A program made the position numbers and the translations under genes. 64,000 bases of DNA from Pseudomonadota bacterium (GTDB lineage Bacteria; Pseudomonadota; Gammaproteobacteria; Acidiferrobacterales; UBA6901), in the NCBI GenBank assembly GCA_021785515.1, contig JAJYEX010000007.1, forward strand, positions 124,001-188,000, in the 5' to 3' direction. The notes beneath the pieces are model-generated. The model was not told where the DNA came from. It did no database searches and saw nothing but the letters and a program-made list of their open reading frames with translations. Shown here piece after piece: positions 16,509 to 32,709 of this stretch. Within the stretch, counting starts at the first letter, position 1. Every line of letters starts with the position of its first letter.

Positions 16509-17258
16509 GTGATCGTCGTCATTCCTTCCAGGTTCAGCTCGACCCGGCTTCCGGGGAAGCCGCTGCTGGACATCGCCGGCAAGCCCATGATCGTGCATGT
16601 CTGCGAGCGGGCGAGGGCGAGCGGCGCCCGCCGGGTGATCGTTGCCACCGACGATGTGCGCATCGAGGCTGCAGTGCGCGGCCTGGGATGCGAAGTCTGC
16701 ATGACCGCTCCCGATCACCGGTCCGGGACTGACCGGATCGCCGAGGCGATTGCGATCATGGGAATCGGTTCGGACGAGGTGGTAATCAATCTCCAGGGCG
16801 ATGAACCACTGATGCCGCCCGATCTGATCCGCCGGGTAGCCGACACGCTCGTGGCGCACCCTGAAGCCGCCATGGCCACTGCCGGCCATGCGATTCATGA
16901 CCGGCACAGCTTCCTCGACCCGAACGTGGTCAAGCTGGTTACCGACCGCAGCGGTTTTGCGCTCTATTTCAGCCGTGCGCCCATTCCCTGGCCACGCGAC
17001 GACGCGGCGCAGCCGGGAGAGTCCGCAGTCGAGGCGCTGCGACACATCGGCATTTACGCCTATCGCGCCGAATTCGTGGAGCGCTACGCTGCATGGCCGC
17101 AGTGTCCTCCGGAGCGAATTGAATCTCTCGAGCAGTTGCGTGTGCTATGGAACGGCGAACGCATCGCCGTGTGTGAAACGCCACAACTGCCGCCAGGCGG
17201 TGTCGATACGGCCGCGGATCTCGAACGGGTAAGGGCGATTTTTGCCCGCGACGGGTGA
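16509..17258 (+). CDS. kdsB: CMP-Kdo synthetase KdsB
   Basis: KdsB activates Kdo as CMP-Kdo for lipid A-core assembly. The protein is 249 residues, with the nucleotidyltransferase start VIVVIPSRFSSTRLPGKPL, then VATDDVRIEAAV, RSGTDRIAEA, INLQGDEPLMPPDLI and YFSRAPIPWPRD. The start codon is GTG at 16509. It closes the exbB-to-kdsB operon, 12 bp after the Trm112-like gene. Confidence 0.97.
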   Translation: MIVVIPSRFSSTRLPGKPLLDIAGKPMIVHVCERARASGARRVIVATDDVRIEAAVRGLGCEVCMTAPDHRSGTDRIAEAIAIMGIGSDEVVINLQGDEPLMPPDLIRRVADTLVAHPEAAMATAGHAIHDRHSFLDPNVVKLVTDRSGFALYFSRAPIPWPRDDAAQPGESAVEALRHIGIYAYRAEFVERYAAWPQCPPERIESLEQLRVLWNGERIAVCETPQLPPGGVDTAADLERVRAIFARDG

Positions 17259-17358
17259 AGGGGCCCGCGGCGCGGTGACCGCAGTCCGGCGGCCCTGCAA
17301 CGGAAGCCGGCAGACCGGGCTGTGCCGGACCCTTGGCGAAGGCAGCAGGCCTGAAGAT

Positions 17359-17661
17359 TCAGGCGGCGACGTTGTGTGCGCCCAGGGCGCTGCGCGGGCA
17401 GCGGGCAGTAACTTCCGGAACCTCGAGCATGCGTAGACAGAACCGCAGGTCTCGGAACAGTTCCGGATGATCCGTCTGCAGGCTCACCGGAAACACGAAG
17501 CAGGTGCTGTCGTGGCAGGCGGCGCAGGTCGCACAGGGCACAGGCCGGGTCTTGTCCTGCCAGTGTGCGGCGGCAATTCCAAGCAATCTTTGTATCCAGT
17601 TCGAAGGACGAACATTTCGGTTTGCGGAGCCAAAGGCAACGAACATTTCATCATCGGTCAT
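17359..17661 (-). CDS. Small cysteine-containing hypothetical protein
   Basis: I do not recognise this 100-residue protein. It contains the cluster CATCAACHDSTC (four cysteines and a histidine) near residues 43-54, suggestive of metal binding but not a standard finger. A purine-rich GAGGGTG lies 7 bp upstream of the ATG, and a strongly AT-rich tract at 17733-17775 could serve as promoter. It sits on the opposite strand between kdsB and the phosphotyrosine phosphatase, which in relatives are often adjacent. Coding is supported by the ribosome binding site and by the lack of a better ORF on the other strand. Confidence 0.5.
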   Translation of the reverse strand: MTDDEMFVAFGSANRNVRPSNWIQRLLGIAAAHWQDKTRPVPCATCAACHDSTCFVFPVSLQTDHPELFRDLRFCLRMLEVPEVTARCPRSALGAHNVAA

Positions 17662-17732
17662 CGTGCATCACCCTCGTGTGGCGCTGGCATGTGCGCTCAC
17701 CTGATGGCCTTTAGCAAACGCCGTGCCATGCC

Positions 17733-17775
17733 ATTTTATATAATATAATCAATATATTAATGATATACCTGTGCA
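17733..17775. promoter_or_regulatory. AT-rich divergent promoter region
   Basis: A run of overlapping TATAAT-like hexamers (ttatataatataatc and atatattaatga) stands out sharply from the GC-rich surroundings. It lies between the minus-strand 100-residue ORF and the plus-strand phosphatase gene at 17935, so it could drive either. No clear -35 could be fixed on either strand. Confidence 0.4.
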
Positions 17776-17934
17776 TACCGGTGTGAATTTCTGCACCAAT
17801 ATCAGGAGCTGTGGCATGCGGATGCGCAGCGCTGGTGCACGAACGCAGCCCGGCGCAGGTTTGCTATCATGGCCTGCAACGGCAGGTTCGGGCATCACAG
17901 GCCGCAATCGAATTAGGGAAAGAGATCACTGTTC

Positions 17935-18417
17935 ATGGCAAAAGTGAGCGTGCTGTTCGTCTGTCTCGGCAATATCTGCCGTTCCCCAACGGCAGAGGGG
18001 ATATTCCGCGCGCTGGTGCGGGCCCAGGGACTGGAACAGTTCATTCTGATCGATTCTGCTGGCACCCACGCCTATCATATCGGCGAAGCACCCGATGTCC
18101 GGGCGCAGGCTGCAGCGGCCCGACGCGGGATCGATCTGTCAGGTCTGCGGGGTCGCCAGGCGACCCGTGCCGACATCGAGACGTTCGATTTCATTCTTGC
18201 CATGGACCACGAGAATCTGGCGCACCTGCGCAACCTCAGCCCTCCTGGGCACGAGCACAAGGTACGTTTGTTCCTCGAGTTCGCGCCGCAGCGGCCAGAA
18301 CGGGATGTTCCCGATCCCTATTTCGGGGGTGCAGGCGGATTTGATCGCGTGCTCGACATGGTGGAGGAGGCGGCTGCCGGTCTGCTGGAGCACATTCGGC
18401 GGGAACGGTTGGAGTAA
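17935..18417 (+). CDS. Low-molecular-weight protein-tyrosine phosphatase
   Basis: A 160-residue cytoplasmic phosphatase with the catalytic loop CLGNICRS (C-X5-R-S, about residues 11-18) directly after VSVLFV, and the general-acid DPYFGG near residue 125. Such enzymes often control exopolysaccharide tyrosine kinases (Wzb/Wzc type), but no kinase gene is in the window. The kdsB-phosphatase neighbourhood is common in relatives. The RHS fragment begins within 90 bp of its stop, so this gene marks the left border of the accessory island. Confidence 0.95.
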   Translation: MAKVSVLFVCLGNICRSPTAEGIFRALVRAQGLEQFILIDSAGTHAYHIGEAPDVRAQAAAARRGIDLSGLRGRQATRADIETFDFILAMDHENLAHLRNLSPPGHEHKVRLFLEFAPQRPERDVPDPYFGGAGGFDRVLDMVEEAAAGLLEHIRRERLE

Positions 18418-18502
18418 ATACCCAAGCCGGTACTTCCGCGGGCAGCGCCCGGCTGCGGAAATCGATCTGCAGGCTGCCGCCGCGGCAGCTGTCCCGCCAC
18501 GT

Positions 18503-19807
18503 ATGGCGTATTCCCTGCCGGTCTATGGCTATGACCCGGACGGCAACCTCGTTTCCCTTCAGACCATCCCCGAGGTCGACTGCTTCGGCTATGACGTCCG
18601 GGATGAACTCACCCAGAGCACGATCGAGACCCAATCCGGGGCCACCTGCCCGCCGGCCACGCCCGGCACCACCTACACCTATGACCCGAACGGCAACCGC
18701 CTCTCGAAGATGGTCGGCAGCACCCCCACCGCCTATACCTATGTCCCTGACAGCAATAGGCTTACTTCCGTCGGGAGCACGGCGGTCACGACGAGCAAGA
18801 TTGGGGACATTACAGTCGACGCTGCCGGCCGGCACTTTATCTATAACAATGCCGGGCAGATCACCCAAGCCACCTCCGCCTACGGAACCCTTGGGGACTA
18901 TAGCTATGACGCCCACAACCGCCGGGTCCAGAGCTTCTCGGTCCTGGGCAACCTCTACTACCATTACGATCAGGCTGGACACTTGATCGAGGTGACCGAC
19001 GGCACCGGGGCCCTCATCCGGGACTATATCTGGACCGACCACGTCCCGGTCGCCATGATCACGAAAGATGCCACGACCGCAACGGAAACGGTGACCTATA
19101 TCGAAACCGACTATGACGGCACCCCAAGGGAAGCCACCAATCAAAGTGGCGCCATCGTCTGGAGATGGGAGGGGGCCTTCGGCACGAGAGCCCCGAACCC
19201 CGATCAGGTGAACCTCAAGCTCAGATACCCCGGGCAGTACTATGATGCGGAGACGGGGTTATTCTACAACTGGTATCGGTATTACGATCCCAGTACGGGG
19301 AGGCATGATCAGGTGGATCCGGTGAGCGTGAGGAGGCATACGGTGAATTGGATAGTGAGCCTGGGCAACAATGAATCCTATGCTTCTTCGGCGCTCGGAT
19401 TCCGCCCATTTGCTGGCACAGATATTGGCCAAAAACCCTTCAGCTCCGATCTTGATAACTACGCATATGGCGAAGATAATTCGCTACGCAATAGCGATCC
19501 GACGGGAAAGGGGATATTCGGGATTGGGGCAGCGGTAGTCTGTGCTGTAATTGATGGTTATTCCGGTTATGAAAGCATGAAGGCTGTCGAGCGATTGCTT
19601 ATAGAAGTGAATCGCCTGAGTCAACAAATTGAGGCCCTCAGAAAATCGTGTACCGTCAACAACCCCCAAGCGGTTGAATTGCTGACTGAGATAAATCAGC
19701 TTGAGCAAGAAAAATTCAATCTAGATGAGGAATTGGCCAGTAAACAGATGGACTATCAGATAAGTCTGCCGATAATGGTCGGGTGTGCTGGGCTAAGCAG
19801 GTTTTAG
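18503..19807 (+). CDS. 5'-truncated RHS-repeat protein with C-terminal toxin-like module (CT1)
   Basis: A 434-residue frame that is only the 3' end of an RHS gene. YD repeats run from the start (YGYDPDGNLVS, YTYDPNGNRLS, YSYDAHNRRVQ, YYHYDQAGHLIEVTD), and the core closes with YYDPSTGRHDQVDP and YAYGEDNSLRNSDPTG at about residue 335. Intact RHS proteins are usually over 1000 residues, so most of the cage and any N-terminal delivery domain are missing. The ATG at 18503 is only the first methionine; no ribosome binding site is clear. After DPTG, the 99-residue tail (19508-19804) has a hydrophobic GIFGIGAAVVCAVIDGY segment, a coiled-coil-like Leu/Glu-rich middle and a hydrophobic end. No known nuclease motif is seen; membrane activity is a guess. 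Confidence 0.8.
   Translation: MAYSLPVYGYDPDGNLVSLQTIPEVDCFGYDVRDELTQSTIETQSGATCPPATPGTTYTYDPNGNRLSKMVGSTPTAYTYVPDSNRLTSVGSTAVTTSKIGDITVDAAGRHFIYNNAGQITQATSAYGTLGDYSYDAHNRRVQSFSVLGNLYYHYDQAGHLIEVTDGTGALIRDYIWTDHVPVAMITKDATTATETVTYIETDYDGTPREATNQSGAIVWRWEGAFGTRAPNPDQVNLKLRYPGQYYDAETGLFYNWYRYYDPSTGRHDQVDPVSVRRHTVNWIVSLGNNESYASSALGFRPFAGTDIGQKPFSSDLDNYAYGEDNSLRNSDPTGKGIFGIGAAVVCAVIDGYSGYESMKAVERLLIEVNRLSQQIEALRKSCTVNNPQAVELLTEINQLEQEKFNLDEELASKQMDYQISLPIMVGCAGLSRF
19265..19339 (+). repeat. RHS core-end duplicate, copy 1
   Basis: This 75-bp stretch encodes YNWYRYYDPSTGRHDQVDP and is repeated at 20241-20315 with more than four-fifths identity by eye. It is the conserved junction just before RHS C-terminal variability, the usual place for recombinational tip exchange. 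Confidence 0.75.
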
Positions 19808-19832
19808 CGGTTACTAGACAGGAGATCCTACA

Positions 19833-20234
19833 GTGACTAGCCCAGAAACACTCGCTTATATAGTGCCGCTCCTGGTGTGGGCCCCGTTTTCGATCGTGTT
19901 ACTGGTGGGTATGTGGGCGATCAAGGGAAGAGTCCCCAGAAAGCTGTATAAGAAATATTCACGCCGACTCATTAGGCGCAGCCAACTGCCCTTTGCGTAC
20001 GCTTGGCGTGCTCAAATTGAAAGAGACGACCTTCCTCTACTTGAGAGGGCACGAAACCGGTCCACAGCTTTGGGGCTAGCCATCCTCCTTATGGGTTACT
20101 CGATGGCAATGGGATTTAATATTCAGTCAGCAGTTGCGCTCTATCGCTGTAATACAACGACAGGTGCGCCCATGGCTATTCCTCCGATTTCACAGCATCA
20201 GAATGCTGGGAATCAACGACTAACTGGTCGCTAG
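19833..20234 (+). CDS. Small two-helix membrane protein, candidate immunity protein for CT1
   Basis: A 133-residue protein I do not recognise. It starts at GTG 19833, 25 bp after the RHS tail, with AGGAGAT about 8 bp upstream. A membrane helix (about 8-28, YIVPLLVWAPFSIVLLVGMWAI) is followed by a strongly basic cytoplasmic-type loop (KLYKKYSRRLIRRSQ) and a second helix (about 74-94). Its position directly behind an RHS C-terminal module is the classical place for an immunity gene. A membrane location would fit a toxin acting on the membrane. Base composition is visibly more AT-rich than the flanking housekeeping genes. The immunity role is inference from position. Confidence 0.6.
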   Translation: MTSPETLAYIVPLLVWAPFSIVLLVGMWAIKGRVPRKLYKKYSRRLIRRSQLPFAYAWRAQIERDDLPLLERARNRSTALGLAILLMGYSMAMGFNIQSAVALYRCNTTTGAPMAIPPISQHQNAGNQRLTGR

Positions 20235-20240
20235 GGCCAT

Positions 20241-20315
20241 TACAACTGGAACCGGTATTACGATCCTTCCACGGGGAGGTATGATCAGGTAGATCCGATG
20301 AGCGTTGGGGGGCAT
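20241..20315 (+). repeat. RHS core-end duplicate, copy 2
   Basis: Second copy of the 75-bp RHS junction (encodes YNWNRYYDPSTGRYDQVDP). It begins 6 bp after the stop of the candidate immunity gene, with no start codon of its own. This is the expected structure of a displaced, silent tip module. Confidence 0.75.
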
Positions 20316-20753
20316 GCGGAAGACTACATGGCGTCACTCATCCGCATGCAGATTCCGGCGGCGTTGATCCCGATGCCGGCGTTTCCGGCATCCGCGGGGA
20401 ATTCGCTGTCCGGCGCAACGGCGCCGATGGCGCTGGTCGGTCCCGATCTCAACACGTATAGCTATGCGGCTGACAACGCGCTGCTGCACATCGATCCGAC
20501 TGGCCTCTATGTGACGATTTTCCCGGGACAAAAGAGGAAGGACGTTCCGAACGACAACCCTGTAAAACCAAGGCCTGCGTTTCCACCGCCTTCACCTGTA
20601 TGCAGTAGGCAGTGCAGCGCGGAATATTTCATTGGTGTCGCCAAATGTGCCAAATCCTGCAGCATCAAGCTGTTCGGTTACAACGGCGCAACCTGTGAGC
20701 GATCTTGGGCCACCTGGTTGACGAATTGCCAGACAAGCTGCAATGACCAATGA
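20241..20753 (+). pseudogene. Orphan RHS C-terminal module with cysteine-rich tail (CT2)
   Basis: An in-frame RHS remnant of 170 codons that opens at the core-end junction, not at a start codon; the first ATG is at 20298. It contains the junction repeat, an unusual Met/Pro/Ala-rich insert (about 20340-20440), then LNTYSYAADNALLHIDPTG, the normal end of an RHS core. After DPTG an 82-residue tail (20505-20750) contains four cysteine pairs: CSRQC, CAKSC, the cysteines around TCERSW and TNC, and CQTSC at the end. It is intact to its stop but lacks upstream core, so it is best read as a silent cassette that could be recombined onto the RHS gene. The function of the tail is unknown. Confidence 0.7.
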
Positions 20754-20787
20754 GTCCTGAAGATTCAGGTTGCGCAAAGGGAGATTC

Positions 20788-21273
20788 ATGTCCTTGAGAA
20801 AACGCATCGCCGCGCTGGTTGGGCTTTTTGGCGTGATCCTGATCGCAGTCATTGCTGGCGAGTCGCTGGGCGCTCAATACGCATTGATTCAGGAAGCGCA
20901 ACTCGAAGGCATTGTGTTGGCAATGAATGGCGCGATATTTTCCCGCTGCAAGACCCGGGGATGCGAGGGGTTTTCGCAGCAGCAGCTCGTCGCCGAGAAT
21001 GACATTGTGCTGCAGCAGCACCAGATTCTGGAACGTGCATACCGCAATCCGGCCAGTCGACTCTTTTACTACACCACGATGCCGGTGCTCACCGTGATCG
21101 CCGCGGATACCAGCGATGAGCTGAGTTCGATTCACCGAGCGCTTCGGGTCTACAAGCGCCTCGGCTGCGGCCTAAACGGGGTGATCTGCAGACAAGAAGC
21201 GGCCTCGTCGGGCAAAACTAGCCGAAAGAATCCTGGAGATGGCCTGGATCAGCTAGGCCGCAGATTGCGGTGA
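20788..21273 (+). CDS. Small membrane-anchored protein, candidate immunity protein for CT2
   Basis: A 161-residue protein I do not recognise, starting at ATG 20788 with AAAGGGAG 4 bp upstream. One N-terminal membrane helix (about residues 8-28, IAALVGLFGVILIAVIAGESL) is followed by a probable periplasmic domain rich in Gln/Glu/Ala, with CKTRGCEGF near 52-60 and a second cysteine pair (CGLNGVIC) near 131-138. It follows the orphan RHS module by 34 bp. The paired cysteines in both this protein and the CT2 tail could mean that both act in an oxidising compartment; that is speculation. An immunity role is inferred from position only. Confidence 0.5.
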   Translation: MSLRKRIAALVGLFGVILIAVIAGESLGAQYALIQEAQLEGIVLAMNGAIFSRCKTRGCEGFSQQQLVAENDIVLQQHQILERAYRNPASRLFYYTTMPVLTVIAADTSDELSSIHRALRVYKRLGCGLNGVICRQEAASSGKTSRKNPGDGLDQLGRRLR

Positions 21274-21720
21274 GATATTCCGGCACTACAGCAGGGGATC
21301 GCGTGTCCTGCAACCACCCGGTGCGATTGTATGGTTGGATCACGCGGGTTTTGCGTGACCGTCGCGCTCCGCCGTTGCCTTTGCGGCCCGTATCGATGCG
21401 CCGCAACCCGTATAGAGCCGAATAAAGCCGTATCGACGCGCGGTTTTGACGCGGCATGGCCTATGCTGCAAGCCGTATAAACCCGTATGAACGCGCGGTT
21501 CTGGCGTGGCATGGAGTATTGCGCGTATCAACGCAGGGCAAGCCGAATAAACGCGCAGCAATGCGTTTCCGCAACATCTCTTTGGGTGTGTTCAGCCTAT
21601 GGCGCAGCCGCTACTATTGTCCGACGCCAAGGCGCCTGCGAAGCCCACACCTCCGTCAATCCCCCACCCGACGCACCGGCTGGTGGCGGACAAACCCGGG
21701 ACGAACGGGGAAGTCCAGGC
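21274..21720. other. 447-bp intergenic region with CCGTAT repeats
   Basis: No convincing gene on either strand: the frames that are open here are short and simply translate the repeats. The middle contains the CCGTAT/CCGAATAAA repeat cluster annotated separately. The ends of the RHS array and the brnA gene converge on it. Confidence 0.6.
21388..21555. repeat. Clustered CCGTAT iteron-like repeats
   Basis: CCGTAT occurs at 21388, 21408, 21428, 21473 and 21483, with a GCGTAT variant at 21523, and CCGAATAAA occurs twice (about 21418 and 21543). Two longer units starting near 21427 and 21482 (55 bp apart) share about 33 bp, including ACGCGCGGTT and GGCATGG. Spacings of 20, 20, 45, 10 and 40 bp are near multiples of a helical turn for most intervals. 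The function is unknown: options are protein-binding iterons, a decayed palindromic-repeat family or a recombination remnant. Confidence 0.6.
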
Positions 21721-21957
21721 TCACCGTCCCGCTTCGATCAGCTCGATGTCCTTCTTGAGCAGCTCGTTAACCAGTTCGTTGAGCGGCACGCCCTTGGCCT
21801 GGGCCCGCTCGGTCAGGTACTCGCGCACCTTGGTGTCGAGGTACACCGGCAGGTTGAACGTGGCGCCGGAATGGTAGAACTTGCCGCGCACACCCCCTGA
21901 GAAATCGATCTCGCTCGGCATGTCGTCCTCGTTGGATGGATTGCTCGTTGCATTCAT
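21721..21957 (-). CDS. brnA: BrnA-type antitoxin (ribbon-helix-helix)
   Basis: A 78-residue antitoxin of the kind encoded behind BrnT toxins. It has the family start SEIDFSGGVRGKFY and the C-terminal RHH-like segment FNLPVYLDTKVREYLTERA, followed by GVPLNELVNELLKKDIELIE. The start at 21957 fits the tight spacing (8 bp after the toxin stop), although the internal Met at residue 13 (MPSEIDF) is an alternative. BrnA binds BrnT and usually represses the operon; here a third gene, the XRE regulator, may share that role. Confidence 0.8.
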   Translation of the reverse strand: MNATSNPSNEDDMPSEIDFSGGVRGKFYHSGATFNLPVYLDTKVREYLTERAQAKGVPLNELVNELLKKDIELIEAGR

Positions 21958-21965
21958 GGTGTCAC

Positions 21966-22277
21966 CTATCGAGGCTCTTCCTCGTAAAAACGTTGTTCAC
22001 GTTTAGTCGCTTCCCGCGCCGAGATGAGGCGCACCCGGGCGCTGTTGGAGCCGGTGGTTTGATAGGTATGCGCCACGGCCAGCAGCTTGCCGCCGGCATC
22101 AAGACCGGGCGTAAACCAGCGCTCCTCGGACTCGCTGTGGGCCCTATCAAACACCGTGAGCGCAAGCCGATCCCGGAACACCGTCACCGCCTGCTCGAAC
22201 GTGACCCCGTGCTTGGCGGCGTTGGTCTCGGCCTTCCCCACGTCCCACTCAAAATCATAGTCGAACTCGCTGCTCAC
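21966..22277 (-). CDS. brnT: BrnT-family ribonuclease toxin
   Basis: A 103-residue toxin with the BrnT pattern: FEWDVGKAETNAAKHGVTFE (the conserved W-D..K...N..KHG), DRAHSESEERWFTPG, LLAVAHTY and RLISAREATKREQRFYEE. BrnT toxins are RelE-fold ribonucleases that block translation when freed from BrnA. The active-site residues common in the family (Arg in RLISARxA, Glu/Arg in KREQRFYE) are visible. It lies 8 bp after the XRE gene and 8 bp before brnA, so the three form one operon. Confidence 0.88.
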   Translation of the reverse strand: MSSEFDYDFEWDVGKAETNAAKHGVTFEQAVTVFRDRLALTVFDRAHSESEERWFTPGLDAGGKLLAVAHTYQTTGSNSARVRLISAREATKREQRFYEEEPR

Positions 22278-22285
22278 GTGGCGGG

Positions 22286-22663
22286 TTATCCGGTAGCGGC
22301 CTTCTTCTTCAGCTTGCCGCGCTCGATGAAGGCATCGAGCACCTGCAACACCTGGCGCTTCTCGGCCGGCTCCAGCTGCTCGATCTGCTGAAGCCGGCGC
22401 AGCAGCCGGTTATCCGGTTCGCGCGGCTTCTTCTTGAGGGGCTCCAGTCCCAGCAGCTCATCCGCGCTCACCTTGAGCACGCGCGCCAGGTCCGGTAGCA
22501 GCGCCGACGGCGGCGGCTCCGGCTGGGTCTCGTAGTACGAGATCATCCGCTGGGTGGTGTTCACGGCCTCGGCCAGTTCCACCTGGGTGTAGCCAGCACG
22601 CTTGCGCAGTTCGGCCAGGCGCGCGCCGACGCCGGTGAGTCGTTCCACGGTTTGCTTGGGCAT
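22286..22663 (-). CDS. XRE-family transcriptional regulator
   Basis: A 125-residue Cro/C1-type regulator. The helix-turn-helix spans about residues 12-65 (RLAELRKRAGYTQVELAEAV, then TTQRMISYYE) and is followed by a short Leu/Lys-rich C-terminal helix with LLRRLQQIEQLEPAEKRQVL, which is often seen in such regulators. The start at 22663 was chosen because an upstream extension would run over the probable promoter. It is the first gene of the XRE-brnT-brnA operon. A perfect 7-bp inverted repeat about 80 bp upstream is a likely operator. Confidence 0.85.
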   Translation of the reverse strand: MPKQTVERLTGVGARLAELRKRAGYTQVELAEAVNTTQRMISYYETQPEPPPSALLPDLARVLKVSADELLGLEPLKKKPREPDNRLLRRLQQIEQLEPAEKRQVLQVLDAFIERGKLKKKAATG

Positions 22664-23053
22664 GGACGGACTTCCTGACAAGGGAGAACGTCCGCCATTG
22701 TAAGGCCGGGTCCTGGGCATCCGCGTGAAATCGGTTGACGTCATATACGTATAATGTATATGCTCCCGTCCGGTAAAACAATGCACAACAATTTCAACGA
22801 GTTGAATGTGTGTTATGCGGGGTAGGATATCACGCGCGCGCTCACCCATACTGTTGATGCAGGGGCATGGGGAAATCCTTGCGACAATCCTGCGACACGG
22901 CGCAACAATAATTCGGACTACAATGGACGTAGGCAGACGATTAATCGTTTATAAAACGTACATTTACGAACGCGACGTTCTATCATTATTTTGCTCGTTA
23001 GCCGGTAAACGGCGCAATCCTGGTGCCCGCGGGTGCGGCACAAATCCCTGTTT
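22664..23053. other. 390-bp intergenic region between XRE gene and membrane-protein gene
   Basis: Apart from the promoter/operator at 22742-22781, no gene is supported. The stretch 22900-23000 is more AT-rich than the surrounding DNA but shows no ORF with a credible ribosome binding site. Confidence 0.5.
22742..22781 (-). promoter_or_regulatory. Promoter and palindromic operator of the XRE-brnT-brnA operon
   Basis: On the plus strand CATATAC (22742-22748), a 7-bp spacer and GTATATG (22756-22762) form a perfect inverted repeat. On the minus strand a -35-like TTGTTT (22776-22781) and a -10-like TACATT (22753-22758) are 17 bp apart, so the -10 element lies inside the palindrome. That is the arrangement expected for autorepression. 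The promoter elements are imperfect; the palindrome is clear. Confidence 0.5.
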
Positions 23054-23737
23054 CTAGCTGCTTTCGTGGTGTTGAAGAATGCGGTGTCGGGCCAGCTGGT
23101 ACCCGTTTTCATCGATGACGGCCGCGTCCTTCAGCCTGCGATGCTCGCGTAACTCCTCGGCCAGGCGATCAGAGCGGTCATCGGTGCGAAACTGCGTTTT
23201 GGCTTTTTGAATACGCTGGACGACGTCCTGTACAAACGACCGGAATTTCCGGTTCCGGCGCCCCTTGTGCAGCAGCTCGAAAAACAGCGTGCCTCCGTGT
23301 TCGCTATAAAACAGCAGCCTGTCGGAACATCGATACAGGCCGATGAGGCCAGCGACCAAGGCAAAGGTGCCCGTCAGAATTGTCGCTGAAAACCAGGTAT
23401 TGAAGGCCAGCGACCCAATGTCGCGATCCAGGTATATGGCCAGCAGCACCGTAACAATGGCAGCGATAGCCGCCACACCCAGAACCCGCCACGCGATGAT
23501 AATGCGCCTTACCGGTTGTGGGGACAGAAACGCGAGGTCCATTGTGTACTGTTGAAGTTTACCGTGGACCCGCCGGATTCGTACCTCGAGATAGTGGCCA
23601 TTGAAAATCTCGTAGGTTGTGCGGCAACCCTTGGAACGATTGATTTGGCGGTATATGCGCTCGGTCTTGTGTGGCTCGGCTTCGGGCTGCTCATTGCTGG
23701 CGAGTACGATGTGTTCTATCGCATCCTTGTTGGCCAT
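23054..23737 (-). CDS. Hypothetical membrane protein with two transmembrane helices
   Basis: A 227-residue protein I cannot place. Residues 1-80 are polar and basic (RIYRQINRSKGCRTTYEIFN, RIRRVHGKLQQYTMDLAF). Two membrane helices follow (about 82-103 and 115-138), then a cytoplasmic-type basic tail with FYSEHGGTLFFELLHKGRRN and a helical segment (FRSFVQDVVQRIQKAKTQF). The architecture of a soluble domain, helix pair and soluble domain resembles small membrane proteins scattered through accessory regions of gammaproteobacteria. It lies upstream of the XRE-brnT-brnA operon but 390 bp away, so it is probably transcribed separately. Confidence 0.65.
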   Translation of the reverse strand: MANKDAIEHIVLASNEQPEAEPHKTERIYRQINRSKGCRTTYEIFNGHYLEVRIRRVHGKLQQYTMDLAFLSPQPVRRIIIAWRVLGVAAIAAIVTVLLAIYLDRDIGSLAFNTWFSATILTGTFALVAGLIGLYRCSDRLLFYSEHGGTLFFELLHKGRRNRKFRSFVQDVVQRIQKAKTQFRTDDRSDRLAEELREHRRLKDAAVIDENGYQLARHRILQHHESS

Positions 23738-24201
23738 ATTCTGTCTTTCGGCAGCTCGATCGCGGAAAACGCTTTGCCCGGACGGTAAGTAACGTCAGAT
23801 CATGCTGAGTTTAGTATAGAAAGGCGCTTTTCGCCGGGAGCTCAAATTTTTTGCATGATTGGCTGGTGGGAACACCTGTTTTCCAGCGGGTATGCCACTG
23901 AATATATATGGAATGTCGTCGGCGCGGTGACTCCGGGGTTGCCGACAGCAAGCCGCCTGATGCAACTGCTGCGAAAACTGGGATAGCTTTGGTCGGATTA
24001 GGCGGAGCCCGTGGCCGGGTAAGGCCAAGACATGCCACCCTGGCGGGCCCGTGTGTTAGCGCGCCGGACATGCCATGACTCCACTGGCCCGTGGTTTATG
24101 GGTCGGGTGAATACCGACGTAACCGGTTGTAAGTATGAAAAAATCCCTCGCAAAACCAGTCATCAGCGGCCATTCAGTGAGCAATTGGGAGACAAGTCAA
24201 C
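23738..24201. other. Intergenic region, no gene seen
   Basis: The DNA between the two membrane-protein genes has only short frames with atypical composition on both strands. It probably holds the promoter of the gene ending at 23054. The adjoining 24202-24456 may hold a decayed ORF and is listed separately. Confidence 0.45.
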
Positions 24202-24456
24202 AGTCGCAACGAGACAAAGGAATTGCTGACAAACATGGTAGCCGCCAGTGGCGATCAGCTGACTGAGGACGCCATGGTGAAGGCCGGGCAAGCACTGCAC
24301 AGCAATTAGCAGTCTGACGAGGATACCGCGGTGCTCGACGATGGAGAGCACATGCGGATGCCTTACAGCGATGGCCGGCAAACTGAATTTATGTTTGAAT
24401 TCAAAGATCATCCCTGCTGGCGCGGACGTCAAGGATTTCCTGACGCCGCGATTTAA
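24202..24456 (+). pseudogene. Possible nonsense-interrupted small ORF
   Basis: One plus-strand frame reads continuously as protein-like sequence except for a single TAG at 24307-24309. The part before it contains MVAASGDQLTEDAMVKAGQ (ATG at 24235) and the part after contains SDEDTAVLDDGEHMRMPYSD and FMFEFKDHP, ending at TAA 24454-24456. Its acidic, hydrophilic composition looks more coding-like than the alternatives. I do not recognise the family. It overlaps the end of the C13-peptidase gene by 4 bp. It may simply be chance. Confidence 0.3.
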
Positions 24457-27221
24457 CGCAAAGCGGTTCCTGGTACGCTTGTAGCAGCGTGGCCAGCAAT
24501 GAGCGCCTTGCCATAACGCAGACCGTTTACACCGAATCCGGCCGCGATGTGCTGGGTGGATCGTGGGATGGCGTTCAGGCGATGGTCTATCCGCGCAAGC
24601 TTCAGGCGAATCGCGTTGCCTTCGGCAATTTGCGGATGGGAATGCCCGTCCCCTAGAAGTTTTTCACGTGCGCGGATTATGGGCAATGCCTGTTCAAAGG
24701 CCTGCCTGAACGAATAGGTCCGGCGTAGCTCCTGATCGAAGAGGGCCCTGCCGAAATAGGTAAATTTTCCGTGGGCACTGCATCCGAAAGAGGTGTGCGT
24801 CGCATCCGCTGCAGTCATCACCAACGTCGTCGGCCCCCGAAGGGGGGCGATGAAGCCCCCGGAATAGCAGGCCGAAACGATGATCACCCGCCATTTTATT
24901 CCCGACCCATCGAGCAGGTGTCTGAGCAAATAAGGATTGATCTCCTCAAGCCGCAACGGCCAGAAGTCGGAGGCGAGGTGAAAAGATGGGGATCCGTGCG
25001 AAGTAAGATACAGCACGAGCACGTCCTTGCTCCGGTTCATCACCGCCCCGATATGGCGCAGCGCCGACCCCAGATTGGTTGCGGTGGCAAGCGGATAGCG
25101 ACCCAAGGTCTTGCGGTTGTTGATAAGCAGCAGCGAGCGGCCTCGTGTGCCAAAGCGATGGTCCATCAACTGCCTGATTGCCTCCACCTCGTTCATGAAT
25201 ACGTCCTGATCGGCATCCGGCGCAAATCCTACGAAATAGAAATTGGCGTGTTTTCCCTGATGGGGACGTATCGCCCCGATCTCCTGGCGCGCGAGCCGCG
25301 GCTCCAAATACAGAAACTTTTCTGCAACCGGGGATTTGCCCGCGGGTGCGGAGGCAACGGACTCCTCGTACCAGAAGGAAGGCGCGGGAAAGCGATAGTT
25401 GTAGATGGAGAGCGCGATGAGAGGCAGCAAGACGACCGCGACACGCCCAAGACGCATCCCCGGCAAGCGGCGCACAAACACGGCCGCAACCAGAAAGTAC
25501 CAGGCGTTCGCACCCAAATAAAACGCGCCCCAGGTCGAATACGTTAGGCGCAAAAGCAAGTGCGGTGCGACGTGAAAGATTACAGCCTGAATCAGGTACC
25601 AGGGAAGTTCCATGGCAGCAAGGGCGACGGGAACCAATAGAATGTGCGCTTGCCGCGTGGTAATCCGGGCGGCAAGCCAGCCGCTCAGCAGGCTGATCAA
25701 CGCTGCCGTAGCGCTTGCACGAAAAGTCGGCCAATAAAATGCCGCCGCGCCGCTGTAGAACGTCCGCTCCAGAGCAATAACGACGCCGAGGTACACCACA
25801 ATCAAGGCGATCCATTGCCCCGGAGAGATCACCCAGGAGTCGGGCTCGACGTTTGCAAACACCGTAACCCGTGCGCCGTTTCTAAGGTTGCGGAGCACGC
25901 CGCTCGCAAGCGATTTCCACTGCCGCTCCCCTTGCTTGCCCGTCGCCGGTGCACAGTTTTCGCCCCGGTGTCTCATCACCGTACGTGCGATCAGGCCACC
26001 AACGAACGCCACGCCCGCGAAGAACAGCAGCTGTTCGGCAACAGTAACCCGATCCCAGGAGAGGGGATTAGCCAGCCGGGGCAGGGGTTGATCCAGCACG
26101 TGCGCATCGACCCGCCATCCCACTTGTTCCAGGACATTAAAGATTACTGAGCACAACAGCCCCGCGAGCGTCCCCTGCGCGAGTGTCCCGCCGCCGCGCC
26201 GGACTACCCGCCATCCGGCATGACCGACCACGGCGATCGTCACAGTGTCGAAAATCGACAGAAACAGCGTGTGCGGCGCAAGGAAAAACCGGTCCGGATA
26301 GACCAAACGCTCCACGATCCAGGCGACGGAGATGAGAACGAATGACGGTCCGAGGGTATTCCGGTTCAAGGCGTGCACCCGGAAAGACGACACTGCCGGG
26401 CCGGCGGTCGGCGTCGATCCTTGGCTGTTTCCCCCTACACCTGACGGCAACCGGTCACCGGCCAGATCGCCCGACGATGCAAGCAGAGCGCCTCCCATCC
26501 ATAAATAGAACGCCACCATGCACCCCAGCACGACAGGGACAAGGATCACGGCCAGGATCACGGCCGCGATACCCTCGCCGATCATCAGCATCCTGATGAT
26601 CGGAAGCATGACGAGCCCGACAGAGACCGCAGCAATGACGGGTACGCACAGTCCCGCAACGGGAATCGCAAACCATTGCCGCTTCCCTTTCCGGAAGATC
26701 CGCGCGGTCATGCGTAATGCATCCACAGGACCGACATCGTAGCGTGCGATAAGGGCGTACGCGTAGCTCACGAGCATTCCGGCAAGCTCTTCCAGGGCAA
26801 TTGCCCAATACATCCAAGGCGGTGGAGGGTGCCGGATTACCGCGAACGACCACGTAGACACCAGCGTGAGCGGAAAAGTGAAAAGCGCCCAGATCACAGG
26901 CAACGTCCACCGCGAAGACTTTCGAAATCCCCAGGACAGGAACTGAGCCCGCACGGCCCCCCCGTTCAGGCTCTCCCAGAAACTGCGATAGACCCCGATA
27001 GAAAATGTCCCGACGATCGCGTGTGCCAACCAGGCGGTCACGCCTGCCAGCGCCCATAGCCGGTGTTTGACGGCAAGAATATCCGGGATACCGCTGGCCA
27101 CCACCATGACTGTCAGGGCGAACAGCGCCCCGGCGTACTGCCAGAATCGCGTTTGTACCAGCGCGACTCCGGCGGAAAAGCTCTCGCGTAGCGTCCGTGC
27201 GGTAATTTGCCCATCTGCCAT
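24453..27221 (-). CDS. Polytopic membrane protein with C-terminal C13 (legumain-like) peptidase domain
   Basis: A 922-residue protein built of three membrane blocks and a protease. Residues about 25-250 hold six or so helices, about 290-415 a second group, and about 470-610 a third with the loop RTFYSGAAAFYWPTFRASA seen in Yip1-like domains of bacterial C13 proteins. The soluble C-terminal domain (about 630-885) has the caspase-fold dyad: His742 in YLTSHGSPS and Cys785 in IIVSACYSGGF, each after a hydrophobic strand, plus TAADATHTSFGCS. A good AGGGAGA lies about 7 bp upstream of the ATG at 27221. C13 enzymes cleave or transamidate after Asn/Asp; substrate and role here are unknown. The small upstream ORF is probably in the same operon. 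Confidence 0.85.
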   Translation of the reverse strand: MADGQITARTLRESFSAGVALVQTRFWQYAGALFALTVMVVASGIPDILAVKHRLWALAGVTAWLAHAIVGTFSIGVYRSFWESLNGGAVRAQFLSWGFRKSSRWTLPVIWALFTFPLTLVSTWSFAVIRHPPPPWMYWAIALEELAGMLVSYAYALIARYDVGPVDALRMTARIFRKGKRQWFAIPVAGLCVPVIAAVSVGLVMLPIIRMLMIGEGIAAVILAVILVPVVLGCMVAFYLWMGGALLASSGDLAGDRLPSGVGGNSQGSTPTAGPAVSSFRVHALNRNTLGPSFVLISVAWIVERLVYPDRFFLAPHTLFLSIFDTVTIAVVGHAGWRVVRRGGGTLAQGTLAGLLCSVIFNVLEQVGWRVDAHVLDQPLPRLANPLSWDRVTVAEQLLFFAGVAFVGGLIARTVMRHRGENCAPATGKQGERQWKSLASGVLRNLRNGARVTVFANVEPDSWVISPGQWIALIVVYLGVVIALERTFYSGAAAFYWPTFRASATAALISLLSGWLAARITTRQAHILLVPVALAAMELPWYLIQAVIFHVAPHLLLRLTYSTWGAFYLGANAWYFLVAAVFVRRLPGMRLGRVAVVLLPLIALSIYNYRFPAPSFWYEESVASAPAGKSPVAEKFLYLEPRLARQEIGAIRPHQGKHANFYFVGFAPDADQDVFMNEVEAIRQLMDHRFGTRGRSLLLINNRKTLGRYPLATATNLGSALRHIGAVMNRSKDVLVLYLTSHGSPSFHLASDFWPLRLEEINPYLLRHLLDGSGIKWRVIIVSACYSGGFIAPLRGPTTLVMTAADATHTSFGCSAHGKFTYFGRALFDQELRRTYSFRQAFEQALPIIRAREKLLGDGHSHPQIAEGNAIRLKLARIDHRLNAIPRSTQHIAAGFGVNGLRYGKALIAGHAATSVPGTALR

Positions 27222-27244
27222 GGCATCTCCCTTATTGTGCTTTT

Positions 27245-27511
27245 TCAGTAGCCGCTCCAGCATCGCGCCGGAAAGAACAGAAAAACCGGAGCGCCGCCGG
27301 GCATTTTCCCAAGGGCAACGAGCGCGGCGGTCGCGATGGCGGTGGTCAGCGCCGAAGGGTCAGCGCTCAGGCCAAGGTGTCCGCGGAACCACCATTCATA
27401 GATTTGTCCCGCGCCATAGGCGAGCGCCGTCAGCAGGCCGAGGAACAGAAACGCGCCGCCCTGAAGGCGGCTGAACTCGACCGCCCAGGCAAGGACATAA
27501 ACGAGCGTCAT
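27245..27511 (-). CDS. Small hypothetical membrane protein upstream of the C13 peptidase
   Basis: An 88-residue protein of unknown family with two likely membrane helices (about 15-38, GGAFLFLGLLTALAYGAGQIY, and about 55-80, ALTTAIATAALVALGKMPGG) separated by a short loop with WWFRGHLGLS. It ends 24 bp before the C13-peptidase start on the same strand, so the two are likely co-transcribed. The ribosome binding site is weak, which lowers confidence. It could be an accessory subunit of the membrane peptidase. Confidence 0.5.
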   Translation of the reverse strand: MTLVYVLAWAVEFSRLQGGAFLFLGLLTALAYGAGQIYEWWFRGHLGLSADPSALTTAIATAALVALGKMPGGAPVFLFFPARCWSGY

Positions 27512-27717
27512 CAGGAAGTACTACTGTGTCTTCATAGTCTGGTCTCCGGCAGGCAGTGATCGGGCTTTTCCGGGGCCGGGCCGGAAGGGCGCCGACGGGA
27601 ATCGCCGCAACCGCCCGCCTGCCGTTCGAGGCGAGCCGAACACGGCGGCCGGAATGCGGATCCCGGAACGGGCAACCGCCGGATGGCGGCGACAGTCTGT
27701 TCGCCTGGCAGCGAACG

Positions 27718-28245
27718 CTATTGCACTGCATTGCAGTCATACCGGTAGTGAACGTAGCCGCCCACGTAGTGATTGGGGATCCACTGGCATCCCTGAAACC
27801 ACTGGCAATCCTTGTGTCCCCATACCATCCGGGCTTGCTGGCGGTACTGTGCGAACCACAGCTCCATGGTCCCGGGATAGAACGCGACGGATTCCGGCGG
27901 ATCGCTGGCGTTGCGTGCATCGGCGGCGCGCCACGCGAGATCATTGCCCTGGTCCATGATCGAGTAGTTCTGATCGTAGGAATACGCCAGATAGGGCAGG
28001 TACGAAGGATCAGAGACCGGATCCTGCCGGAGGGCGACGACATTGCCCGCGGAATTGAAGCGCAGATAAACGGCGGCATACTGGTAGTCGGCGTGATTGT
28101 GGCAGACCATCGTGGTTAGATGCTCTGACGCGACAAGCTGCGCGGCATCAATGGATACCCCAGGGCTCGCGCAGGCCGACAGCAGAAGCGCGAGGCCTGT
28201 ACCGAGGAAAGCAGCGGTGACGGCTGTTCGGGAAACATTAAGCAT
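27718..28245 (-). CDS. Hypothetical lipoprotein
   Basis: A 175-residue exported protein. The N terminus is a lipoprotein signal (MLNVSRTAVTAAFLGTGL, then LLLSAC), with lipobox L-S-A-C giving the lipidated cysteine at about residue 25. Position +2 is Ala, so outer-membrane sorting by the Lol system is expected. The mature part is rich in Tyr and Trp and has cysteines in TMVCHNH, KDCQWFQGCQW and RYDCNAVQ that could form disulfides. I do not recognise the family. It lies 207 bp upstream of the small membrane ORF on the same strand, and the IS1380-like element begins 224 bp upstream of it. Confidence 0.7.
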   Translation of the reverse strand: MLNVSRTAVTAAFLGTGLALLLSACASPGVSIDAAQLVASEHLTTMVCHNHADYQYAAVYLRFNSAGNVVALRQDPVSDPSYLPYLAYSYDQNYSIMDQGNDLAWRAADARNASDPPESVAFYPGTMELWFAQYRQQARMVWGHKDCQWFQGCQWIPNHYVGGYVHYRYDCNAVQ

Positions 28246-28468
28246 GTGAGCGGGTCCTGTCTTTTTTTTGTCTCGTGTGCCGCGGGGCTGTACAGCGTGC
28301 AACAGCGTACGACCAAGCCATCTTCGGCGCAGGAGAAACCCGAAGGGGTCCCTGCAGCCACAGCTCCAGTGCACCAGATCTGAGTATAGACGGTTCCCGC
28401 GAGGCTGCGCAGCGTGAGTCTCTTCCAATAAGGTTTGATCCCGAACGAGGGCCCGTATTTCCAATGAA

Positions 28469-30012
28469 CCTAGAAACGTAGATTGAAACCATCATTTCTA
28501 TCGACGGTCTCAGCGATCGCTCAAGCCATCGGTGTTGCGGCACCCAGCGGCCGCCTGCACGCGCGCTGGGACGGTGAGTCCGCGGCGACCCCCTTCGGTC
28601 AGATGGCCTTCTTCCTGGAGTTCCTGCATCTCACCGGCCTTTATGAACGCTGGCAGAGGGCGTGCCCCTTGAGTTATTCCGGCCCCCATGGCTCGAGGCG
28701 CGAAGATATTTTAGGAACCTGGTTTTTGTCTCTCCTCGCGGGGCATCGCCGTTACGCCCACATCAACGCCATCCGCTTTGATGGGGTGATGCCGGATCTG
28801 CTTGGCATGGATCAAGTGGTCTCCGAAGACACGGTGCGCCGCTTTCTCAAGGCGATCGATGAGCTCACCGGGCATCAACTGGTTACAGACCCATCTCGAT
28901 GCGTGTGTGGCGCCGCTGTTGTCCGCCCCCTGGATCCTCGATGTCGATGTGACGGTGAAGCCCCTCTACGGTCACCAGGAAGGGGCGCTGCTGGGCTACA
29001 ACCCGAAGAAACCCGGACGCCCCTCGCACACCTGCCACACCTATCAGATGGCGGGACTTCGCTTGGTCCGCGGGGTCGATGTGGAACCCGGCAATCAAAG
29101 CCATTCGAATACGACGTTGCCGGGTCTGCTGAAACTGATCGATCGACTGCCGCCGAATCAACGTCCCTTTTGCGTGCGCAGGGACGCGGGCTTTGGCCAT
29201 GACGCGGTAATGCAGGGGCTGGAAGAGCGCCAAATTCCCTATCTTTTCAAGCTGCGCGCGACGAAGAACGTGAAGCGCTATCTCGAGAAGATCTTCTGGG
29301 CGAAGGGCTGGGTCAATGCCGGAGCAGGGTTCGAAGGGCGCGAAGGCGAGCTGGCCTTAAGCGGCTGGAAAATAGCACGGCGCGTGATTGTGCTCAGACG
29401 GCGCCTGAAGGGCGAGGTGGCCTTGAGTGACACGCATCAGCTCGCGCCCGGCTTTCTCGACACCGACGTCCCGACACAACGCTACGAGTACTTCGTGCTC
29501 GTCACGGATCTCACCCACGAGATCCGAACGCTCGCCCAACTCTACCGCGATCGCGCCGACAGCGAGAACACCTTCGATGAGTTGAAGAACCAGTGGGGCT
29601 GGGGTGGCTTTACCACCCAGGACCTCAAGCGCTGCCGCTTCAATGCGATGGCCGTTGCGCTGATCTATAACTGGTGGTCGCTCTTTGTGCGGCTTGCCAA
29701 TCCGAAAGCACGCCTGGAGGCGATCACGAGCCGCCCGTTTCTCTTATCCGGTGTAGCACGCCAATCGCGCCATGCCGGACAACAACATCTCGTGATCAGT
29801 CACACCCACCGCTATGCGCACCTCGCACAAGCCATGCTCACCCGGGTCAGCCGGATGCTTCAGGAGTGGGCAAAGACAACTGCGGAGCAATTAGACCCCG
29901 ATGCCCTCTGGGCGCGGGTGTGTGAGCACTTGATGACCACGCTGACCGGGGTGAACTGGCTCAAGCCGCCGCCGAATCGACTGGCGGGGGTGGGTTAATA
30001 CACGTTTTTAGG
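28469..30012 (+). mobile_element. IS1380-family insertion sequence with frameshifted transposase
   Basis: The left end reads CCTAGAAACGTAGATT from 28469 and the right end, read inward from 30012, is CCTAAAAACGTGTATT, giving imperfect terminal inverted repeats. Both start with CCTA, as in ISEcp1-type IS1380 elements, and the similarity extends 4 bp outside (TGAA). No target-site duplication is obvious (ATGAA and TTCAA flank the ends), so a later rearrangement is possible. Length is about 1.54 kb with a single transposase gene filling it. Confidence 0.85.
28483..29998 (+). pseudogene. IS1380-family DDE transposase, frameshifted
   Basis: The transposase reads in one frame from about 28483 to 28872 (ATPFGQMAFFLEFLHLTGLY) and then in the next frame to 29998. 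Removing one base near 28873 joins the two as DELTGINWLQTHLD, the expected continuous reading. The catalytic region is complete: Asp in WILDVDVTVKPLYG, Asp in CVRRDAGFG, and the Y-(2)-R-(3)-E-(6)-K signature in YRDRADSENTFDELK. IS1380 transposases are normally a single ORF, so this copy should be inactive unless the extra base is a sequencing error. Confidence 0.85.
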
Positions 30013-30396
30013 TTCAAGGAGTCGATGCAACACCCTCCGATTAGTGTACCAAACCGGTACGGTAGCTGAATGGCTCAAAGGCGTGACTTAAACCAAACAA
30101 CCTTCCCGATGCCCGGGGCAACTCAGGGAAACGGTACTGCAGGCAGCGTGCTCAGGTTCTGAACGGATAACCGCGATATCGATTCACGTTCAAGAAAAGA
30201 CCGGCCAGCATCGCGGCCTGACGTGGCCTAACTCCAGGTGTGTCGGCTTGTCGCCGATTGACCGGATCTCCTGCCCAAGGCCGGAACCTGTCACCCGATC
30301 CGCCGGATCACAGCAAGGCGCCGGAAGTAGTACAGGCTGGCACTGCCGGAACAGCCCGGACCGAAGCTGTTCCGGGCAGTCCGGCTTCTGGAAGGC
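30013..30396. other. 384-bp region between IS element and rne
   Basis: No gene is supported. It contains the downstream side of rne (minus strand). No GC stem followed by a T-run was found for either rne or the element. Confidence 0.5.
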
Positions 30397-32709
30397 TCAG
30401 TGGTCGCTCTTGGGTTCGGACTGTGCCGGTTCTGAATGAGACGGAACGTCAACAGCTACAGCGACCGGTCTCGCGACCGGTGCCGCAACCGGGTATTCGG
30501 GGGCCATGCTCTGCTCACTGCGCGCCGGCGCCCGTTCCGACGCTGCGCCACGATCAACCGGCGGCTGTTCGTTGTGGAATTCCCGGCTGTCATGGCCCGA
30601 TTCACGGTCTGGTGCAGCGGTGCGCTGCGTGGACGTCGTCTGTGACTGCGCTCCGCCGGTTTCTGCCGAAACCGTGTCAGCCCCGGCCGATGTTCCCGCC
30701 TCGCCGCTCTGGCGCGACTGGGGGCGGCGCCGTCCGCGCCGTCCGCGCCGTCCGCGGCTGCCCTCCGGGCGTTCCTTGGGTGCTGCCCCGGAACGGGCGG
30801 GCTCCCGCGCCTCACGTGCCGGCTGGTTGGCTGGTCGGCTTTCGCCGCTACGCGTCTCCGACGGGCGGTGCGAGGCAGGATGAGACGAACGTTGTGGGCG
30901 TTTTTCACGTCCTTCCGGGCGCCGTCCCGATGCCGGGCGGGCAGCGGCAGGGCGGGGTGCAGTGGCGCGCTCCGGCATCTTTTCCGGAACCACGGCCGCC
31001 GGCTCAGGTGCGCCGAACAGACGTTTCGCAATCCGCTTCAGCATCCCTTCCTTGGGCGTTTCTGCGCCGCCGGTGGACTGGCCCGAGGAGGCCGGAGCAG
31101 CTGCGTGTGCAATCTGGCCTACGGCCGGCATTTCTGTCACACCGGTCACAGGACGGACGTGACGCGACTCGTCCTCTTCATCCTCACGCCGTTCAACCTC
31201 GTAGCTGGGCGTGTCGCTCTCTGCCTCGTACTCCTCGCCACGCAGTCGTCGCACGTGGTAATGCGGGGTCTCGATCTCCGGATCCGGAATGATAATCACC
31301 GGGGTCCCGAGCCGGGTCTCGATCGTGGTGATCTCGTGGCGCTTCTCGTTAAGAAGGTAGGTTGCCGTTTCAACCGGAAGATGGACGTGCAACGCGGCGG
31401 TGTTTTCCTTCATCGCCTCTTCCTGGATGTAGCGCAACACATGCAGCGCCGATGACTGAACGCTACGGATGTGTCCGGTACCCTCGCAGCGCGGGCAAAC
31501 CAGGCTGCTCGATTCCCCGAGCGACGGGCGCAGACGCTGGCGCGACATTTCCAGCAGGCCGAAACGGGAAATACGTCCGACCTGTACGCGCGCCCGGTCG
31601 GCCTTGAGAGCCTCGATCAGCTGGTTTTCAACGGCCCGCTGGTTGCGCGCCGGGGTCATGTCGATGAAATCGATCACGATCAGACCTCCCAGGTCACGCA
31701 GCCGCAGCTGCCGTGCGATTTCTTCCGCTGCCTCCAGATTGGTGTTGAGCGCGGTTTCTTCGATGTCGGCACCCCTGGTGGCGCGCGCCGAGTTGACATC
31801 AATCGTCACCAAGGCTTCAGTGTGATCGAACACAACAGCGCCGCCGGACTCCAGACGGACCTCGCGTGAAAACGCCGACTCGATCTGGTGCTCGATCTGG
31901 AAACGGGAGAACAGCGGTGTTTCGTCCTGGTAGAGTTTTAGCCTGCCGAGGTTTTGCGGCATCACCTGTTCCATAAACTTCAGGGCGCGTTCATGGATCT
32001 CCGGGCTGTCGATCAGGATTTCCCCGATGTCCTGGCGCAGGTAGTCGCGGATGGCACGAATTACGAGGTTGCTTTCCTGATAGATCAGGAATGGCGCCGC
32101 CCGCTCCACGGCTGCGTTGCTGATCGCATCCCACAAATGGATCAGGTAGTCGAGGTCCCACTGCAGTTCCTCGGCGCTCTTTCCGATGCCCGCAGTCCTT
32201 ATGATTACGGCATAGTCTTCGGGAATCTTGAGCTGGGCCATTGCCTCGCGCATTTCAGCGCGTTCTTCGCCCTCTATGCGGCGCGAGATGCCGCCACCCT
32301 TGGGATTGTTGGGCATCAGGACCAGATAACGTCCTGCCAGGCTGATGAAGCTGGTCAGGGCCGCGCCCTTGCTGCCGCGTTCCTCTTTCTCCACCTGTAC
32401 AACCAGTTCCTGGCCTTCCTTGATGACATCCTTGATGCGCACCTGCGCCATCGGTGTCTTGCTGTCGTAATCACGGAAGTAAATGCGGGATATTTCCTTC
32501 AAAGGCAGGAACCCCTGGCGTTCGGAACCATAGTCCACGAACGCGGCCTCGAGACTCGGCTCGACGCGTGTCACCTTGCCCTTATAGATGTTGCCCTTCT
32601 TCTGCTGATACGACGAGGATTCGATGTCGAGGTCGAGGAGTTTCTGGCCATCAACAATAGCAACCCGCAACTCTTCAGGGTGAGTTGCGTTAAACAGCAT
32701 TCTCTTCAT
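30397..32709 (-). CDS. rne: Ribonuclease E
   Basis: The 770-residue endoribonuclease that initiates mRNA decay and rRNA/tRNA processing. The N terminus [20 protein letters not shown] is typical. The S1 domain follows (about 35-120, [20 protein letters not shown]), then the DNase I-like catalytic part with [16 protein letters not shown] and the zinc-link CPRCEGTGH (about residues 403-411). Beyond about 510 the protein is Pro/Arg/Ser/Glu-rich with stretches such as [10 protein letters not shown], resembling the disordered RNA-binding and degradosome scaffold. It is shorter than the enterobacterial enzyme (about 1060) but has the same plan. It is divergent from rluC, as in Escherichia coli. Confidence 0.96.

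Follow-up and report, generated by a model that had tools for sequence, protein, structure and literature searches.

Peptidases of the C13 family share the caspase-like fold of legumain. The locus studied here raises the question of what such an enzyme may do when it is joined to three groups of membrane helices and encoded in an accessory region. The window, a stretch of 64,000 nucleotides (G000:C18:124001-188000), contains an open frame at 24453..27263 on the minus strand that holds the gene. Its likely start is position 27221, giving a membrane C13 peptidase of 922 residues (24453..27221, minus strand), because the protein of a congener begins MSDGQITARTMREAFSAG, like the window protein (MADGQITARTLRESFSAG), while conservation does not extend into the 14 upstream codons. 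This congener (G002) encodes a full-length orthologue with 64% identity. Comparing both genes block by block, we obtained dN/dS ratios of 0.35 for the first N-terminal block (N1), 0.62 for the second (N2), 0.37 for the membrane anchor and 0.11 for the catalytic domain. Purifying selection thus acts on every folded block (dN/dS below 1). It follows that the N1-N2-C13 fusion is a real, maintained gene, even if a young or rare one. Its location in an accessory interval, adjoining a split transposase gene, might suggest a catalytically dead or decaying gene. This we find scarcely credible, given the low ratios, that of the catalytic domain above all, an intact dyad and a frame that is open in both species.

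The C-terminal part had been read in a first-pass annotation as a C13 peptidase with a His742/Cys785 dyad, and this reading is confirmed. In Pfam, PF01650 (Peptidase_C13) matches residues 726-837 with an E-value of 1.7e-18 and 67.5 bits, against a cut-off of 22.8; NCBIfam returned only a sub-threshold caspase match for the 922-residue protein. When the window protein was aligned with 75 relatives from genome contigs, His742 (codon 24996..24998, minus strand), Cys785 (codon 24867..24869, minus strand), Ser783, Asp733 and Cys814 were invariant in all 76 sequences. An AlphaFold2 model built from this alignment had a pLDDT mostly above 90 at residues 431-885, approximately, and a poor one (about 30-65) for residues 1-430. 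Foldseek and VIA-align matched residues 656-887 of the model to legumains (Z about 20), plant metacaspases (Z about 19-20) and subunit K of the GPI transamidase (Z about 19), placing the protein within the caspase-haemoglobinase fold of clan CD. Moreover, a profile search of PDB sequences aligned TNHGS, EACESG and SYAC of human legumain with TSHGS (His742), SACYSG (Cys785) and SFGC of the window protein, so that the two dyad residues fall on the HG and AC motifs of legumain. In that search, potassium-channel matches were taken as hydrophobic noise; the globin matches from a single-sequence phmmer search of the PDB were attributed to chance. Judging from alignment and model, the protein is a member of the C13 family with predicted peptidase activity, and its legumain-fold catalytic domain spans residues 640-885 (24567..25304, minus strand).

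The substrate preference of legumain does not necessarily follow from its fold. The E-A-C position of legumain is an invariant S-A-C (Ser783) in the C13 relatives, and its G-D-W position reads G-R/K-A, with Arg825 in the window protein and Lys, Gln or Glu elsewhere. Ser783 and Arg825 align with Glu187 and Asp231, which we take to form the acidic S1 pocket of legumain; hence these acidic residues are not kept at the aligned positions among the 76 sequences. As both specificity residues are replaced, cleavage after Asn or Asp should not be assumed.

A hydropathy scan at a threshold of 1.2 placed six helices in residues 33-236, four in 289-416 and five in 464-606, in line with the three membrane groups initially noticed. 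A sixteenth segment, 779-797, belongs to the catalytic core and was rejected as a membrane helix. By sequence, the last five helices and the catalytic domain (about 435-885) correspond to the membrane C13 protease common in proteobacteria. The five-helix anchor of this canonical unit (residues 435-619; 25365..25919, minus strand) is delimited by the alignment of the 75 homologues, by the charge of its loops and by high pLDDT values. In these homologues, the loops before the first helix, between the second and third, and between the fourth and fifth carry 14-20 Lys and Arg per 100 residues; those between the first and second and between the third and fourth carry 3.5-4.5. The segment that leads from the fifth helix toward the catalytic domain has 7.1, with an acidic excess. 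Under the positive-inside rule, this alternation points to an anchor with its N-terminus in the cytoplasm and predicts a catalytic domain that faces the periplasm. A total of 15 helices and a cytoplasmic N-terminus of the whole protein agree with this orientation.

What sets the protein apart is the region ahead of this unit. Block N1 (residues 1-275; 26397..27221, minus strand), with six predicted helices, belongs to a small family of stand-alone membrane proteins of about 280-350 residues. A paralogue lies in the window genome (33% identity, E 2.3e-15), and further relatives are found in G009, G023, G029, G033 and G334. These N1 relatives occur without C13, and the N1 profile gave no match near other C13 genes. 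At one C13 locus (L035), a gene with a six-helix-like product lies 92 bp downstream, but it has no detectable kinship to N1. At two loci (L008 and L010), the N1-family gene is flanked, in the same order, by genes for a cupredoxin-like exported protein and for a conserved membrane protein of 249 residues. Block N2 (residues 284-429; 25935..26372, minus strand), with four predicted helices, has no credible relative beyond this gene and its orthologue, the two being 55% identical in this block. A profile built from the two sequences matched convincingly only in G000 and G002 among 57 genomes of the order; a match in G054 (E 0.005) was discounted since it contains two stops.

Together, N1 and N2 form an in-frame addition of about 430 residues to the common C13 unit, restricted to one genus in the genomes searched. 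The unit itself is present in five of the 57 genomes of the order (G000, G001, G002, G005 and G048), and the long form only in the two congeners G000 and G002. Neither block was found in any of 80 C13 relatives from genome contigs. The view that the N-terminal part is unusual among C13 proteins therefore stands; its size does not, since it comprises two blocks and about 430 residues instead of a single block of about 290.

Most C13 relatives have an N-terminal extension shorter than about 40 residues, and in a minority it reaches 170-270 residues. Apparent extensions of 170-200 residues in L032, L063 and L090 were left out of this count, as their starts seem to have been called too far upstream. 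Seven of the long extensions were tested, and Pfam points to YcxB in all of them, three above the cut-off (L013, L014 and L039) and four below. These YcxB-like additions indicate that N-terminal membrane additions recur in C13 proteins. One of the proteins (L013:7173-9686) also has an extra C-terminal DUF2059 domain. A gene order of MobA-like, C13 and MoxR is conserved at L014, L016, L026 and L027, for plain as well as for YcxB-fused C13 genes, which suggests that the family occupies a stable place on the chromosome. In the class, PF01650 matched at an E-value of 0.001 in 39 of the 369 genomes sampled, roughly a tenth, a count that includes some long frames, possibly of other caspase-fold proteins. 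Recurrent membrane additions and a polytopic layout of several blocks would suit regulated proteolysis, in which N1 and N2 sense a signal from the envelope and a specific regulator in the periplasm is cut by the C13 domain. However, no conserved regulator gene lies beside the C13 homologues, and N1 exists elsewhere without a protease; we consider this reading unlikely.

The first-pass annotation had also placed the gene in an accessory island, and the comparison with related genomes agrees. In the window, kdsB (16509-17258) and rne (30397-32709) bracket 13 kb (17259-30396) that hold a Rhs fragment, BrnT, a probable BrnA, a HTH regulator, a small membrane protein, the C13 gene, a gene for an 88-residue protein, a lipoprotein-like gene and a split IS1380-type transposase. 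In the Rhs part (18095-20753), a Rhs-repeat ORF precedes a second, separate ORF that has a Rhs-core-like end (HIDPTGLY) and a tail rich in cysteine; the arrangement resembles a Rhs element that is broken or orphaned. Near the C13 gene of G048 there is a comparable fragment (L114:15646-16434, 32% identity). The BrnT toxin, a probable CopG-type antitoxin (BrnA, from a weak Pfam match) and the HTH regulator lie in a row at 21721-22711 on the minus strand. The transposase extends over two overlapping frames (28483-29998), probably as a frameshifted copy of the element. In the congeners G001-G004, different genes occupy the same interval; translations inspected by eye include a low-molecular-weight phosphatase, an iron-sulphur protein, MFS transporters and a P-type ATPase. 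In G005 it measures about 0.9 kb, and its size ranges from about 0.9 to 14 kb among the relatives compared. Furthermore, the G002 copy of the C13 gene is located elsewhere, close to the end of a contig. Given this differing content and the displaced G002 copy, the accessory setting is real.

Within this interval, the gene for the 88-residue membrane protein (27245..27511, minus strand) ends 24 bp upstream of the C13 start, and from this spacing the two genes are likely co-transcribed. The ORF looks real because a paralogue elsewhere in the genome (G000:C9) is 49% identical (E 6.5e-19); a relative in G033 reaches 65%. Neither relative is beside a C13 gene, and the protein has no match in G002, where only about 360 bp precede the C13 gene. 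Of the small membrane partner initially proposed, the gene and its position thus hold, and the partnership is at most a possibility, its relatives being unlinked to C13.

An accessory interval with BrnT/BrnA, an insertion sequence and a Rhs fragment, its content varying between congeners, together with the caspase-like fold, could speak for a stress-triggered or anti-phage protease, as had been raised at the outset. The membrane blocks would then sense phage or stress and release a suicidal, caspase-like protease. Several results are at odds with this. A search of PADLOC-DB at an E-value of 0.1 returned no family for either the 922-residue protein or the 88-residue ORF. Among IMG/VR viral contigs, 95 pattern matches included no C13 relative, and the two matches in phage records both came from one entry of an uncultured Acinetobacter phage, whose match equals that of the A. 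baumannii gene in span and identity. The recurrent neighbours of C13 genes are ordinary: cca upstream at five loci, and a MobA-like NTP transferase upstream and MoxR/vWA downstream at four to five; in A. baumannii, the gene sits between fghA and a methyltransferase gene adjoining tsaB. We also surveyed whether homologues cluster in defence islands, comparing 131 near genes with 100 distant ones (at least 4.5 kb away), and saw no evident enrichment. This survey is coarse, as it counts PADLOC families and not genes: 39 families matched near and 3 far, most of the 39 forming a single kinase-like group, each matched by one member. The families shown had one to three members each among the 131 near genes and one to three among the 100 distant genes, so that few genes account for the matches close to homologues. 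Ordinary neighbours and a predicted periplasmic orientation speak against a cytoplasmic suicide protease, and the nearest studied relative is tied to envelope permeability. Altogether, a defence role now appears very unlikely.

This relative provides the sole functional lead that we found for bacterial membrane C13 peptidases. The A. baumannii records contain one homologous place each (36% identity over 321 residues, E about 1e-55), encoding a protein of 483 residues with the same motifs that two records annotate as 'peptidase C13 family protein'. From this name and the sole place matched per record, it is probably Abrp, for which the primary paper is that of Li et al. in 2016. The abrp gene has been reported to change membrane permeability and growth rate, as well as susceptibility to tetracyclines, chloramphenicol and fosfomycin, although the reviews differ as to which way permeability changes (PMC5346588, PMC8003822, PMC10203620, PMC11615727).

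On balance, we favour the reading that the window protein is a polytopic envelope cysteine protease of the inner membrane, with a periplasm-facing C13 domain for which N1 and N2 recruit a membrane partner, a substrate or a lipid; this seems moderately probable. The standard five-helix anchor has been extended N-terminally by fusion with the six-helix N1, of stand-alone origin, and the four-helix N2, both of which most likely recognise that partner, substrate or lipid. The His742/Cys785 dyad may cleave envelope proteins near the membrane surface, or transfer them as in the GPI transamidase, and the enzyme might in this way contribute to envelope homeostasis. A natural fusion of the protease with a separate membrane family points to the kind of partner with which such proteases may work, and makes this testable.

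The transfer reaction deserves separate consideration. Acting as GPI8/PIG-K does, the enzyme would cut a C-terminal signal and join the protein to an acceptor in the membrane that N1 and N2 supply. Subunit K ranks with the best matches by structure, it is membrane-bound and faces the lumen, the topological equivalent of the periplasm, and additional membrane blocks would be in keeping with a site for the acceptor. Nevertheless, the scores of legumains are equally high or higher, N1 and N2 are missing from most of the family, and in the neighbourhood of the C13 gene, the region covered, we recognised no sorting-signal substrates, no genes for GPI transamidase partner subunits and none for a GPI-type acceptor or its biosynthesis. 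A transamidase-like function is accordingly a doubtful prospect. More speculative still, and a long shot, N1 and N2 might shape a site within the membrane for a substrate or an acceptor. The protein would then be a bacterial counterpart of the GPI transamidase in a single chain, cutting envelope proteins and attaching them to a membrane carrier.

Compared with known systems, the protein shares with legumain the fold, the His/Cys dyad and the SYAC/SFGC loop. Legumain, however, is a soluble lysosomal or vacuolar enzyme, its Glu before Ala-Cys is a Ser in the bacterial proteins, and the Asp of its G-D-W is Arg, Lys or variable in the window protein and its relatives. GPI8/PIG-K resembles the window protein in its C13-type fold, membrane association and lumenal catalytic domain, but it belongs to a multi-subunit eukaryotic complex. 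The YcxB-C13 fusions, mostly from Betaproteobacteria, likewise carry another membrane module upstream of the C13 membrane unit; theirs is YcxB-like and has no sequence match to N1 or N2. The closest systems are the membrane C13 peptidases of proteobacteria, including that of A. baumannii, with the same five-helix anchor, legumain fold, HG and SACYSG motifs and invariant SFGC, and about 30-50% identity over residues 435-885. The window protein differs from them by its N-terminal N1 and N2, absent from all relatives found outside G002, and represents a new architecture of a known family, not a new type of system.
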